64,000 nucleotides of DNA from Rivularia sp. T60_A2020_040 (GCA_015272215.1 JACYMD010000010.1:1-64000); one strand, 5' to 3'; shown: positions 34,805 to 40,037, numbered from the stretch's first letter. Notes: generated from the sequence alone by a model not told the origin. Program-made: numbers and translations.

Positions 34805-35087
34805 ATTTTGGATTAAGGATACCTGCCTTATTTTCTGTTTCCTACTCCTTACTCCCTACATTCCTTAAGTTTTGAAAAATTGTATTCCCCAACACCAACT
34901 CATTTCCGAAAACTGAATTGCACTTTTCCTGAAAAAATGTAAAGTTTTATTAAGAAGCGAGCGGATTTTTGGATTTACATCTGACAACCTAGTGAAGCGG
35001 AAAATTCAGAATCATTGCAGGAGCAGCTGTGTTAGAGCAACACCCGATATATCCATCGTTTTTCTGTCACATATTAGCATTACGCAT

Positions 35088-35735
35088 ATGACACATTCTG
35101 AAGATTTAAACGAGCAGCTAAATCAATTAGCAACAGAAGTTTGTCAGCATCCGAATGGTAGCCTGAAACGACAGCGATTGTTAAATCAATTGATTTATCA
35201 AATGCAGCAGTCAGGAAAAATTTGGAAAGGTAGCGATATTCGGGAGCAATATTATGAAGATGGATTACAACAAACTTGGTTTTGGTTTTGCAAAAGTATT
35301 CATAAATATGATGCATCGCAAGCAAATGTAATTACTTGGTTTAATGTCCATCTAAAGTATAGACTTTTAGATATTCGGCAACAAATAGCTCAAGAAAATG
35401 AGACTAAAGTAACTAGCTTAGAATATCAAGAATCAAATCCAATAAATCCAATTGATAAGTTACCTGCACCAGATAAACCGCAACCAATTTTAGAAGAAAC
35501 TCTAGAATGGATTGAAACCCAAGGTAGTGAATTACGCCGTCTTCACATTCGTTCATTTCCGCATATTAACTGTCAAGTATTGCTGAAACACAAATTACCT
35601 CCCGATGCCAAAACTTGGCGTGAATTAGCCGAACAATTCGGTAAAAGAGAAAGTACTCTCAATCATTTTTACAACCACAAATGTCTTCCTTGTTTGCTAG
35701 CTTTTGGCAGAGAGCAAGGATATATAGATACGTAG
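35088..35735 (+). CDS. Sigma-70-like protein (start probably ATG 35088)
   Basis: IREQYYEDGLQQTWFWFCKSIHKYDASQANVITWFNVHLKYRLLDIRQQI resembles sigma region 2; C-terminal helical ELAEQFGKRESTLNHFYNHKCLPCL. Confidence 0.6.
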   Translation: MTHSEDLNEQLNQLATEVCQHPNGSLKRQRLLNQLIYQMQQSGKIWKGSDIREQYYEDGLQQTWFWFCKSIHKYDASQANVITWFNVHLKYRLLDIRQQIAQENETKVTSLEYQESNPINPIDKLPAPDKPQPILEETLEWIETQGSELRRLHIRSFPHINCQVLLKHKLPPDAKTWRELAEQFGKRESTLNHFYNHKCLPCLLAFGREQGYIDT

Positions 35736-35761
35736 CAAAAGTTATTTTAAGGTATTTACTG

Positions 35762-36853
35762 ATGATATCAACAGAACAGCTAATTATTTCTATTCCAATT
35801 ACTGAATCCGAGCGAAATCAGGCACATAAATTTGCTCAAGAACAATCTAATCCCGAAAAAGCCAAGCAAGTTTACCATAATACTTTAGCTGTATTAGTTA
35901 CTAATAATTATTTCCAAATGTTAGATGTAGCGACTGCATTACAACAGAGTTATTGTTGGAATACTATTGCTCGATTAAGTACTAATATTGCGGACTTAAA
36001 TCTACCAGAAAAGGGACATTTAGAATGTCGTCCAATATTAAAATATAATGATACTTGTTACGTTCCTCAAGATGTCTGGAATAACCGTATTGGTTATGTT
36101 GTAGTGCAGCTTGATGAAGATTGTAAACAAGGAAAATTATTAGGATTTGTGCCGCAAGTTAACAGCATTATGCTTAATCTTAACAAGTTACAATCTTTAG
36201 ATAACTTATTTGAGCTTCTACATTCTAATCAAACTGTAATCCAGTTAAATAGATGGTTAGAAAATGCTATTGATACAGGTTGGAAAAATATTCAAGAAAT
36301 TATAGATAAACAAGCAATTAGTCCTCTTTTTGTATTTGCGGATATTTCTCCCAAAATTACGAATATTGAAAAAATGGAAGATATAGTAGCACAATTATAT
36401 TCCAGTCAAGATGAGATAAATAAAGTTGATTCCGATTCTGAAAAAGCTTTAATTCATCTATTAAAAAATACTCACAACGAAGAAATTCGCTGGAAAGCCG
36501 CCGAATTACTTTGGGAAATAAACCCACAAAATCCCACAGGAGGAATCAGAAAAGCAATTGACTTGGGTATACACTTTAGTAAAAATGCTGTGGCTTTGAT
36601 GGTGGCAATTTTACCCAAACCCGATGAAAGCTTGGCAATTTTAATTAGAGTATATCCGGGAAGTGGTAAAATTCATCTTCCCCCAGGATTAAAACTCAGC
36701 GGCTTAGATGCAGAGGGAAACTCTTTCTTTACAGTAGAATCTAGAAATAAAGATAACTACATTCAGTTTAAATTTACTGCCGAATTAGGAGATAAATTCA
36801 ACATTCAGGTTGCTTTAGATGATGCAAATATTACAGAGAGATTTATTGTTTAG
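35762..36853 (+). CDS. DUF1822-family protein
   Basis: MISTEQLIISIPITESERNQAHKFAQEQSNPEKAKQVYHNTLAVLVTNNYFQMLDVATAL. Confidence 0.75.
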   Translation: MISTEQLIISIPITESERNQAHKFAQEQSNPEKAKQVYHNTLAVLVTNNYFQMLDVATALQQSYCWNTIARLSTNIADLNLPEKGHLECRPILKYNDTCYVPQDVWNNRIGYVVVQLDEDCKQGKLLGFVPQVNSIMLNLNKLQSLDNLFELLHSNQTVIQLNRWLENAIDTGWKNIQEIIDKQAISPLFVFADISPKITNIEKMEDIVAQLYSSQDEINKVDSDSEKALIHLLKNTHNEEIRWKAAELLWEINPQNPTGGIRKAIDLGIHFSKNAVALMVAILPKPDESLAILIRVYPGSGKIHLPPGLKLSGLDAEGNSFFTVESRNKDNYIQFKFTAELGDKFNIQVALDDANITERFIV

Positions 36854-37286
36854 TTATTCAGATAATTTGTATGCGCCGATTTTTCTCTGTTAAAATTAAT
36901 ATTTTTATTTGTAGAGATGTAATATCATGCTTCTCTACATTTTTAATATTTTTATGAATAAATTTAATCTGTTAACACTGGAATGATATAATCTTTAACG
37001 CGAAGGGACGCAAAGGTATACGCAAAGGGGCGCAAAGTTTTTATTTATATACGATGGGTTCAATATTGAGAATTGAAATAAAGGCAGTACATTTAACTAT
37101 TCCCTCTTCCCTATTCCCTCTTCCCTCTTCCCTTAAATTAACAAAAATCAAACTAGATTCCTATATTAAATATTTTCAATAATATTATTTAAAATGGAAA
37201 CATTAGCATCTATGATCTATTCTTCAGTATAATTACGGTTATAAATTAGACGAATTTTTAAGAAAAACCATTACTCCCCAAGCGTC

Positions 37287-39884
37287 ATGAGCAAGTTTGT
37301 TGTATTGAATATTTACGAAGGCAGTTTTGACCAAGGGTTTCGTGTAATGCTTGAGATTGGTGAAGATGGTCGAAGATTCTTTAAACAAGAGATTACACTT
37401 GCTCCGGCACCGGATATTCCTCGATTATATCAAGATTGGCAAGACAAATACCGCGAGTTGGGTAAAACTAGAACAATTAATATTCCTGCCGCTCAAATTA
37501 CTAATTGTTCTGTAATTGAAGATGAAAATGTTGCTAGAAATCGATTTGAAAAGTATTTGATTCAGTGGTTTGCTCAACTTCCCTTCCGAGAATTACAAGT
37601 AAGAATAGAAGAAAAAACTTATCCACATGAATTAATAAGAGTAATCATAGATACTAATAATATTTATTTAAAAAAGCTTCCTTGGCATTTATGGAAATTA
37701 TTTCACAACCGCCCTCAAGCCGAATTTGCTTTGAGTGCAGAATATTCACGTTCTAGTGAACCTTTAAAACGTCCTATAAAAATTTTGGCAATTTTCGGGG
37801 GTAGTCAAGGATTAGATTTATCTTTAGATAGACAATTATTAATAAATTTACGCAAGCGGGGAGCGAAAGTTACTTTTTTAGAAAAACCTCAAATAAAACA
37901 ACTTAGTCATAGTTTGTGGGAGCAACATTGGGATATTCTATTTTTTGCGGGACATAGTTCTTCTAAAGAGGAATGTAACAGCGGAGAAATTCAAATTAAT
38001 GACAGTGAAAGTCTTTCATTAACTAGGTTGAGAAATGCCTTAAGAACTGCGGTTAAAAATGGTTTAAAATTAGCAATTTTTAATTCTTGTGATGGTTTGG
38101 GTTTAGCGGATGAATTGAGTGGTGTGAAAGTTCCACAAATGATTGTAATGCGTGAACCTGTACCTGATGAGGTAGCGCGGCAGTTTTTACAATACTTTTT
38201 AGAAGATTTTTCCCAAGGACATTCTTTGTATTTAGCGGTAAGAAATGCACGTGAACGTCTGGAATTTATGGAAGATAAATTTCCTTGTGCTTCTTCGTTA
38301 CCTGTGATTTGTCAAAACCCCGCTGCTCGTCCTTTAATTTGGGCTAAAAAATCAATTTCGGTTAAGAAAATAGCAGTTTTCACAGGAGTAATATTCGGAG
38401 TTTTTTTAAGTTATTTAATTTTATTTAGAATACCTAAAATTGAAATTGTTAACAAAAATATTCCTCCACAAGAACAAGTGGGAATAGCAGGTTCGGGAGA
38501 TGCTTTAGAAAATATAGAAAATCGCTCTAGCTGGGGAGAAAATTTATTAATTACTTCCGATTTAAATGATGATAAAGATGCTGGAATCCAAGCTTTTAAA
38601 AGTAATAATTTTAATCAAGCTATTGAATATTTCCATAAATCTTTAAAGAAACAACCTAATGACCCAGAAACATTAATTTATCTAAATAATGCCGTTGTAA
38701 AACAGACTTCTAAAATTAATCTTCTTCCTGTTCCTGAAAGTTTAAAATCTGATTTAAATACCTGTTATTTGAGAAATAATTCTGCTCAAATTTTGAAAAT
38801 TGCTGCTCCTATTCCTATTAATGCCGATGCTCATATTGCACGAGATTTATTAAGAGGAGTTGCACAAGCTCAAAATGAAATAAATTGTACAGGTGGAATT
38901 AATGGCAAACTATTACAAGTGATGATAATTGATGACGAAGAGAATTTCTCTGTAGTTAAAGAAGTTGCTAATAAATTAGTAAAAATTCCCAATATTTTAG
39001 GAATAGTTGGTCATTATTCTAGTACTTCAACTTTAGAAGCAGGCAAAATATACGACGGTAAAATAGTCGCCGTTTCTCCTACTAGTAATGCTTTTAGAAA
39101 GTCAACAATTAACCCAAATGGATTAGATTTTAGTAAATGGGTATTCCGCACACCTCCCAGCGGTGTTAAAAAATTAGTTGAGTATATGGTAGATAAAAAA
39201 GGTTATAAAAAAGCCGCCGTTGTTTACGTTCGTAGTCGTGCTTGGAGCAATTCTACCTACGAAGAATTTAAAAAATATTTGACATCAAAAGGTGGTGAAA
39301 TTGTTTATAAATGCGAACTTAATGGTAACTTTATCGCAGAAAATTGTTTAGAAAATGCTATCAAAAAAGAAGCCGAGGTAATGTTGTTATTGCCTGAAAT
39401 TAATGAAAATACCTTTTATAAAGCTCTACAAATTTTCGACGCTAATTCTAACAATCCGAAGAAATTATTTTTATTCGGTGGAACTTCCATGTATAGCGAT
39501 ATCATTCGGAAAAAGGGAAAATTCGCAGAAAATCTGGTGACAGCTTTTTACTGGCATCGAAATGAAAAGAACCCCAGTCAATTTGAAAGCGATGCTCTAG
39601 CACTTTGGAAAGCCCAAATCAATGGACGTACCGCTATGTCATATGATGCGACTATGGTAATTGCTGAAGGTTTGCGACGGATGGGTAACAATCCAACTCG
39701 CGAAGCACTCAAACAGATTTTATCGGCAGAGAATTTCTCAGCAAAAAGCGTAGCCGGAACAGTAGAATTTGAAAATGGCGATCGCCGCATCAAAGATAAT
39801 CAAATTGGCGTACTAGTCCAAGTAAAATGCGACACTAAAATATTGCAGCCTAGTTGTGATTTTGTTAAAGTTCCACAACAGTAA
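37287..39884 (+). CDS. CHAT (caspase-like) - TM - TPR - periplasmic ligand-binding (Peripla_BP_6-like) fusion protein
   Basis: CHAT dyad WDILFFAGHSS / LAIFNSCDGLGLA; TM IAVFTGVIFGVFLSYLILF; TPR IQAFKSNNFNQAIEYFHKSLKKQPND; binding domain ARDLLRGVAQAQNEINCTGGINGKLLQVMIIDDE...GIVGHYSSTSTLEAGKIYDGKIVAVSPTSN. Confidence 0.88.
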   Translation: MSKFVVLNIYEGSFDQGFRVMLEIGEDGRRFFKQEITLAPAPDIPRLYQDWQDKYRELGKTRTINIPAAQITNCSVIEDENVARNRFEKYLIQWFAQLPFRELQVRIEEKTYPHELIRVIIDTNNIYLKKLPWHLWKLFHNRPQAEFALSAEYSRSSEPLKRPIKILAIFGGSQGLDLSLDRQLLINLRKRGAKVTFLEKPQIKQLSHSLWEQHWDILFFAGHSSSKEECNSGEIQINDSESLSLTRLRNALRTAVKNGLKLAIFNSCDGLGLADELSGVKVPQMIVMREPVPDEVARQFLQYFLEDFSQGHSLYLAVRNARERLEFMEDKFPCASSLPVICQNPAARPLIWAKKSISVKKIAVFTGVIFGVFLSYLILFRIPKIEIVNKNIPPQEQVGIAGSGDALENIENRSSWGENLLITSDLNDDKDAGIQAFKSNNFNQAIEYFHKSLKKQPNDPETLIYLNNAVVKQTSKINLLPVPESLKSDLNTCYLRNNSAQILKIAAPIPINADAHIARDLLRGVAQAQNEINCTGGINGKLLQVMIIDDEENFSVVKEVANKLVKIPNILGIVGHYSSTSTLEAGKIYDGKIVAVSPTSNAFRKSTINPNGLDFSKWVFRTPPSGVKKLVEYMVDKKGYKKAAVVYVRSRAWSNSTYEEFKKYLTSKGGEIVYKCELNGNFIAENCLENAIKKEAEVMLLLPEINENTFYKALQIFDANSNNPKKLFLFGGTSMYSDIIRKKGKFAENLVTAFYWHRNEKNPSQFESDALALWKAQINGRTAMSYDATMVIAEGLRRMGNNPTREALKQILSAENFSAKSVAGTVEFENGDRRIKDNQIGVLVQVKCDTKILQPSCDFVKVPQQ

Positions 39885-39969: not shown

Positions 39970-40037
39970 AACTGTCAACTGTCAACTGTCAACTGTCAAC
40001 TGTTAACTATCAACTGTCAACTGTCAACTGTCAACTG
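39970..40037. repeat. Heptameric STRR (CAACTGT)
   Basis: Read directly. Confidence 0.9.

Follow-up and report, generated by a model that had tools for sequence, protein, structure and literature searches.

A conserved sigma factor, DUF1822 and CHAT gene set in Rivularia as a candidate ligand-gated receptor-protease system

Results

The window analyzed here is a stretch of 64,000 nucleotides from Rivularia sp. T60_A2020_040 (GCA_015272215.1, JACYMD010000010.1:1-64000). A preliminary description had placed three consecutive plus-strand genes at positions 35088-39884, and three ORFs in a row are indeed present there, encoding a sigma-like protein (P0001), a DUF1822 protein (P0002) and a CHAT protein (P0003). 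The locus comprises the following features:

34909..35087, plus strand: non-coding leader/promoter region of the sigma gene; 78-81% identity at the same place in three orthologous Calothrix/Rivularia loci
35088..35735, plus strand: P0001, 215 aa, predicted divergent ECF-like sigma-70 factor; TIGR02937 matches of the family, PDB profile matches
35762..36853, plus strand: P0002, 363 aa, DUF1822 protein, candidate anti-sigma factor or sigma partner and candidate protease substrate; PF08852, 3.5e-83
37287..37616, plus strand: N-terminal alpha+beta domain of P0003, residues ~1-110; AF2 model; belongs to the constant module conserved with CHAT; place and fold class agree with those reported for EACC2
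37617..38348, plus strand: CHAT caspase-like domain of P0003, residues ~111-354, with His223 and Cys268; PF12770, 1.1e-15
38370..38426, plus strand: predicted single TM helix of P0003, residues ~362-380; hydropathy 2.47
38583..38705, plus strand: single TPR-like repeat of P0003, residues ~433-473; TPR_1/TPR_2, E~1e-3, under the gathering score
38817..39797, plus strand: Peripla_BP_6 domain of P0003, residues ~511-837; PF13458, 3.8e-28, near full length

The leader of the sigma gene spans ~180 nt, begins with an abrupt onset of conservation and holds no conserved reading frame. Further copies of it in the genome were sought as a route to the sigma regulon, and it proved to be single copy. Scanning the leader and the window against Rfam gave no match, and a fold of the leader RNA made no case for structure, with 44 pairs of which just 2 were compensatory across 4 closely related sequences. 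The DUF1822 and CHAT genes are separated by a gap of 433 bp; the CHAT gene may thus not be co-transcribed in this genome, which we count against the model proposed below. Short repeats lie in both gaps flanking the CHAT gene (36960-37140 and 39970-40035) and consist of ACGCAAAGGGGCGCAAAG-like units and of TTCCCTC and CAACTGT heptamers. An 11-mer shared upstream of DUF1822 in Nostoc loci was considered as a regulatory site and rejected; it apparently lies inside another CHAT coding region.

The first gene had been read as sigma-like, which is right for its family and weak for P0001 by itself. P0001 matched Pfam Sigma70_r2 at E=0.13, below the cut-offs, and its leading PDB profile matches are ECF sigma factors (E 0.05-0.1). 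Nineteen of its 36 homologues match TIGR02937 (sigma70-ECF; best 1.6e-7), and the family shows the order of sigma regions 2 and 4 in a weak alignment with RpoE (2q1z). Orthologues agree on the start codon of P0001. We classify P0001 as a divergent ECF-like sigma factor by virtue of these family matches. The CASP-sigma model NF041236 was matched by 3 of the 36 homologues (best 1.4e-4) and by the sigma protein on contig C57 (3.5e-9); since generic ECF models outscore it, no special kinship with CASP-sigma is claimed.

P0003 (865 aa) runs from an alpha+beta domain through CHAT, a TM helix and a weak TPR-like repeat to Peripla_BP_6. The preliminary description had given the succession of CHAT domain, His/Cys dyad, one TM helix and Peripla_BP_6 correctly. 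It had also placed CHAT at the very N-terminus and listed a short TPR; residues 1-110 form a separate alpha+beta domain and CHAT is therefore not strictly N-terminal, and the TPR amounts to one weak repeat (Pfam match 433-459). The Pfam CHAT match covers residues 186-353 (1.1e-15), with the fold beginning at ~111. Within the TPR-like region, the stretch NDPETLIYLNNA is close to invariant across PBP-type proteins. The ligand-binding domain, which had been described as complete, is nearly so, with residues 515-837 matching profile positions 15-331 of 343 (3.8e-28), and it also matched PDB 3hut (4.8e-16). Its designation as branched-chain-amino-acid type is the name of a sensor family and does not identify the ligand.

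The motifs FFAGHS and FNSCDG of P0003 provide His223 and Cys268, which are 45 residues apart. Neither residue varies in alignments of 10 and of 23 homologues, nor in any of the 96 family members whose alignment is readable (96/96); HetF and other CHAT proteins of this genome likewise have His and Cys at these columns. An AF2 model of residues 1-360 (23 sequences, pLDDT 85.5, pTM 0.86) was compared with solved structures by Foldseek. The closest fold was Csx29 from the Csx30 complex (8eey_B, 1.7e-11), followed by separases (from 6.9e-11), SAVED-CHAT (1.5e-9) and the transmembrane anti-sigma factor DdvA (8rot_A, 3.3e-8). Searching PDB sequences with the CHAT profile returned nothing meaningful, and the fold was detected by structure only. 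The alignment of the dyad with active homologues, a check proposed at the outset, thus came out positive in its columns and in the match of the fold to active proteases. According to the model, the CHAT module is predicted to combine a separase-like fold with a dyad at the caspase position and is a putative protease. A test of P0003 as HetF was negative, its NF045509 score of 30 bits falling short of the 1200-bit cut-off; the HetF of this genome is encoded on contig C91 (1331 bits).

A hydrophobic segment follows CHAT in 43 of 47 PBP-type proteins. Lys and Arg are in excess on its N-terminal side in 30 of them, on its C-terminal side in 7 and equal in 6; the corresponding numbers for proteins with other C-termini are 23, 2 and 9, all of these counts coming from related sequences that are not independent. 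More Lys/Arg N-terminal of the segment supports a cytosolic CHAT domain and a sensor outside. CHAT and sensor are thus predicted to lie on opposite sides of the inner membrane, as the preliminary description had assumed, the charge bias being the one basis for this placement. In three close orthologues the TM segment is weakly hydrophobic (0.9-1.1), which counts against the model.

Of 96 genomes sampled from the same family, 91 contain a match to P0003 (E<=1e-10), mainly via residues 1-355. Across the phylum, the constant module was matched in 86 of 293 genomes (E<=1e-20), frequently in multiple copies. Neighborhoods were counted in the best 80 loci, which come from related genomes in a sample biased toward close relatives of the query. 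Among these 80 loci, 41 PBP-type loci have enough flanking sequence; DUF1822 lies upstream on the same strand in 29 of the 41, and 5 further ones carry the DUF1822-sigma pair a short way downstream in convergent orientation. In 23 of the 27 testable PBP-type loci with DUF1822 upstream among the best 80, a sigma-family gene is found directly 5' of DUF1822, which gives the order sigma-DUF1822-CHAT on one strand. The same 80 include 36 non-PBP loci, with DUF1822 upstream in 33 and sigma directly 5' in 9 of them; 24 of these 33 (CHASE2-type) have DUF1822 and CHAT without a sigma gene directly upstream, and DUF1822 may therefore act without a linked sigma factor, which weighs against the model proposed below. 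The sampled genera with the gene set include Calothrix, Rivularia, Scytonema, Microcoleus, Pseudanabaena, Leptolyngbya, Oscillatoria and Moorena. Hence, the order sigma-DUF1822-CHAT, whose conservation had been put forward as a check, is conserved across many cyanobacterial genera, well past close relatives.

The sensor is exchanged on the constant alpha+beta/CHAT module. In this genome, the module is joined to PBP_like_2 (C49), to CHASE2 (C45, C26) and to nSTAND1 with WD40 (C75), and the C57 copy sits after pentapeptide repeats. None of the three outcomes named as refuting in the preliminary description (a neighborhood confined to close relatives, an unaligned dyad, both domains on one side of the membrane) turned up, and its interpretation is supported in part.

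Several further arrangements were observed. One sigma-DUF1822-CHAT copy on C132 (L023, 5665-8173) is apparently broken, its CHAT protein stopping just short of the catalytic Cys. In L140, L122, L117, L119 and L088, two to four PBP-fused CHAT proteins stand in tandem behind one DUF1822 gene, as if multiple sensors fed one switch. CHAT receptors of ~1240 aa are encoded in L091, L097, L104 and L111; that of L091, the one scanned, has two Peripla_BP_6 stretches with TPR in between. Immediately 5' of the sigma gene, L089 (3295-4695), L103 (788-2170) and L110 (285-1706) encode separate PBP-profile proteins of 460-473 aa; that of L110 is a confirmed Peripla_BP_6 protein.

P0002 is a DUF1822 protein across its full length, and 101 of the 146 genomes sampled from the phylum have DUF1822 matches. 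Its AF2 model (43 sequences, pLDDT 89.6) consists of an alpha/beta domain, a low-confidence linker (184-200), three helices and a beta-sandwich, and lacks a TPR superhelix. Comparison of the model with PDB folds gave none below E=0.001. Searches of PDB sequences and folds revealed no similarity between DUF1822 and Csx30, which counts against the model proposed below; of Csx30 itself, the structure of the complex resolves only a C-terminal part (PMC10028731).

In this genome, a sigma gene precedes DUF1822 on C10, C57 (TIGR02937, 4.6e-16), C132 (1.5e-9) and C68 (1.3e-30), and the C68 pair has no CHAT gene. The gene 5' of DUF1822 on C49 belongs to the P0001 family by phmmer (2e-19) and has library matches to HTH domains only, and those on C26 and C59 have no significant match. 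Ten further genes located 5' of DUF1822 in other genomes, hand-picked among loci with the highest-scoring DUF1822 matches and none of them caught by the P0001-family profile, all match TIGR02937 (10/10, 1.1e-4 to 2.2e-31). DUF1822 thus pairs with sigma irrespective of CHAT, and the link to a sigma factor drawn in the preliminary description is borne out by this pairing and by the TIGR02937 matches of the P0001 family. Pairing with or without CHAT fits the expectation for an anti-sigma factor or co-factor; DUF1822 could also be an activator or adaptor instead of an inhibitor. Inspection by eye showed no clean relation between DUF1822 length and sigma presence.

Two further arrangements involving DUF1822 were also noted. 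On C68 (L021, 4233-6621) and in L176, L178, L180, L184 and L186, DUF1822 is paired with a long (~390-450 aa) sigma-70 family protein. In L205 (1933-4851) and L207 (2122-4911), a DUF1822-like N-terminal domain is part of a long acidic protein (~900-1200 aa), which also has a hydrophobic segment and whose C-terminal domain is TonB-like by eye; it is present in one copy per genome, and its hosts form a separate small-genome lineage of the phylum (~1.8-2.3 Mb).

Discussion

The locus belongs to a known class, since EACC2-caspases have been described with neighboring ECF sigma and DUF1822 genes in their TRADD-N-independent form (PMC8195603, eLife 2021). The constant part of these proteins is an alpha+beta domain plus a caspase, whereas their C-termini vary and include small-molecule-binding as well as TM domains; autopeptidase activation with transcriptional output through sigma was proposed (PMC8195603). 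Our locus resembles them in its alpha+beta plus caspase module, its variable C-terminus, its adjoining ECF sigma and DUF1822 genes and its cyanobacterial host, the identity of the module being judged from the published description. It differs in that DUF1822 is labeled a TPR protein in PMC8195603 (a label, not a defining feature), whereas our model is non-TPR, and in that the main text names no PBP fusion for EACC2. A caspase-TM-extracellular PBP arrangement is listed among the variable C-terminal fusions of the sister EACC1 two-gene membrane system (PMC7159879, eLife 2020), a likeness to P0003; however, EACC1 is itself a separate small TM protein found mostly in actinobacteria, and the sections consulted describe no sigma/DUF1822 pair for it. 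The present study adds DUF1822-sigma pairs that lack CHAT, a predicted DUF1822 fold other than TPR, a structural match of the CHAT module to Csx29 and the hypothesis of anti-sigma cleavage.

This hypothesis derives from type III-E CRISPR systems, in which the CHAT protease Csx29 cleaves Csx30, a protein that otherwise blocks an ECF-type sigma factor (PMC10028731). Because the Rivularia locus likewise combines a CHAT protease, an ECF-type sigma and a third protein, we propose that CHAT may cut DUF1822. Csx29 is moreover the nearest solved fold, the spacing of its dyad (H615/C658, 43 residues apart; PMC10028731) is nearly equal, and the sigma proteins are distantly similar. In contrast, Csx29 is activated by RNA bound to Cas7-11 and no TM helix is described for it, whereas an external ligand is proposed here and P0003 carries a TM helix, Peripla_BP_6 and at most one TPR-like repeat, which is not a TPR-CHAT architecture. 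HetF, a cyanobacterial CHAT TM protein with the dyad in the same columns, is also among the nearest known systems.

We therefore consider the locus as a ligand-gated receptor-protease of the EACC2-caspase class that would cleave a DUF1822 anti-sigma factor to free sigma, a reading for which we see the chances as evenly balanced. The Peripla_BP_6 domain would bind a small molecule outside the inner membrane, and the single TM helix would relay the change caused by binding to the cytosolic alpha+beta/CHAT module. Ligand would thereby turn the module into an active cysteine protease, which would cut the DUF1822 anti-sigma factor holding the ECF-like sigma factor. Once DUF1822 is cut, the sigma factor would be free to transcribe its target genes.

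Another way in which a constant protease could serve a variable domain fused to it in cis is that ligand makes CHAT cut its own chain and release a soluble effector fragment, with sigma and DUF1822 acting downstream. Autoproteolysis is also the mechanism proposed for EACC1/EACC2 systems (PMC8195603, PMC7159879). We nevertheless regard such a release as unlikely: it leaves the DUF1822-sigma pairs without CHAT unexplained, the variable C-termini are mostly sensors (PBP, CHASE2) and not toxic effectors, and no cut site stood out as conserved.

Alternatively, P0003 might be a transmembrane anti-sigma factor without proteolytic function, a scaffold that holds sigma directly or via DUF1822 until ligand releases it. 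Foldseek also matched the solved membrane anti-sigma factor DdvA (PDB 8rot), which indicates that anti-sigma proteins can have CHAT-like folds. The retention of the His/Cys dyad in 96 of 96 members implies selection for catalysis, and we hold a mere scaffold to be improbable.

A cell-death or anti-phage protease, in which a ligand of infection or stress would trigger broad CHAT proteolysis that kills or halts the cell while sigma and DUF1822 control expression only, could draw on SAVED-CHAT among the Foldseek matches and on the prediction of EACC systems as conflict systems enriched in multicellular bacteria (PMC8195603, PMC7159879), but seems hardly probable given that PADLOC found no match for the three proteins, that an extracellular amino-acid-type binding domain is odd as a phage sensor and that many paralogues per genome with differing sensors suit signaling better. 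The cell-death switch raised in the preliminary description was dropped as a main reading, as no supporting evidence was found.

Beyond this locus, it is conceivable, if somewhat doubtful, that DUF1822 proteins are an unrecognized anti-sigma class and that large cyanobacterial sets of receptor-proteases, with the sensor outside and CHAT inside, cut them to switch sigma factors on. Such a system would be a phosphorylation-free counterpart of two-component signaling and, outside CRISPR, would parallel the Csx29/Csx30/CASP-sigma pathway. To our knowledge, type III-E CRISPR is the sole worked parallel of a signaling route of this kind. If the receptor-protease mechanism holds, transcription in filamentous cyanobacteria would be controlled by caspase-like receptors, several to a genome and each specific for a ligand. 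DUF1822 and many orphan CHAT proteins would thereby also gain a function, and the mechanism may hint at the role of the non-CRISPR relatives of Craspase.
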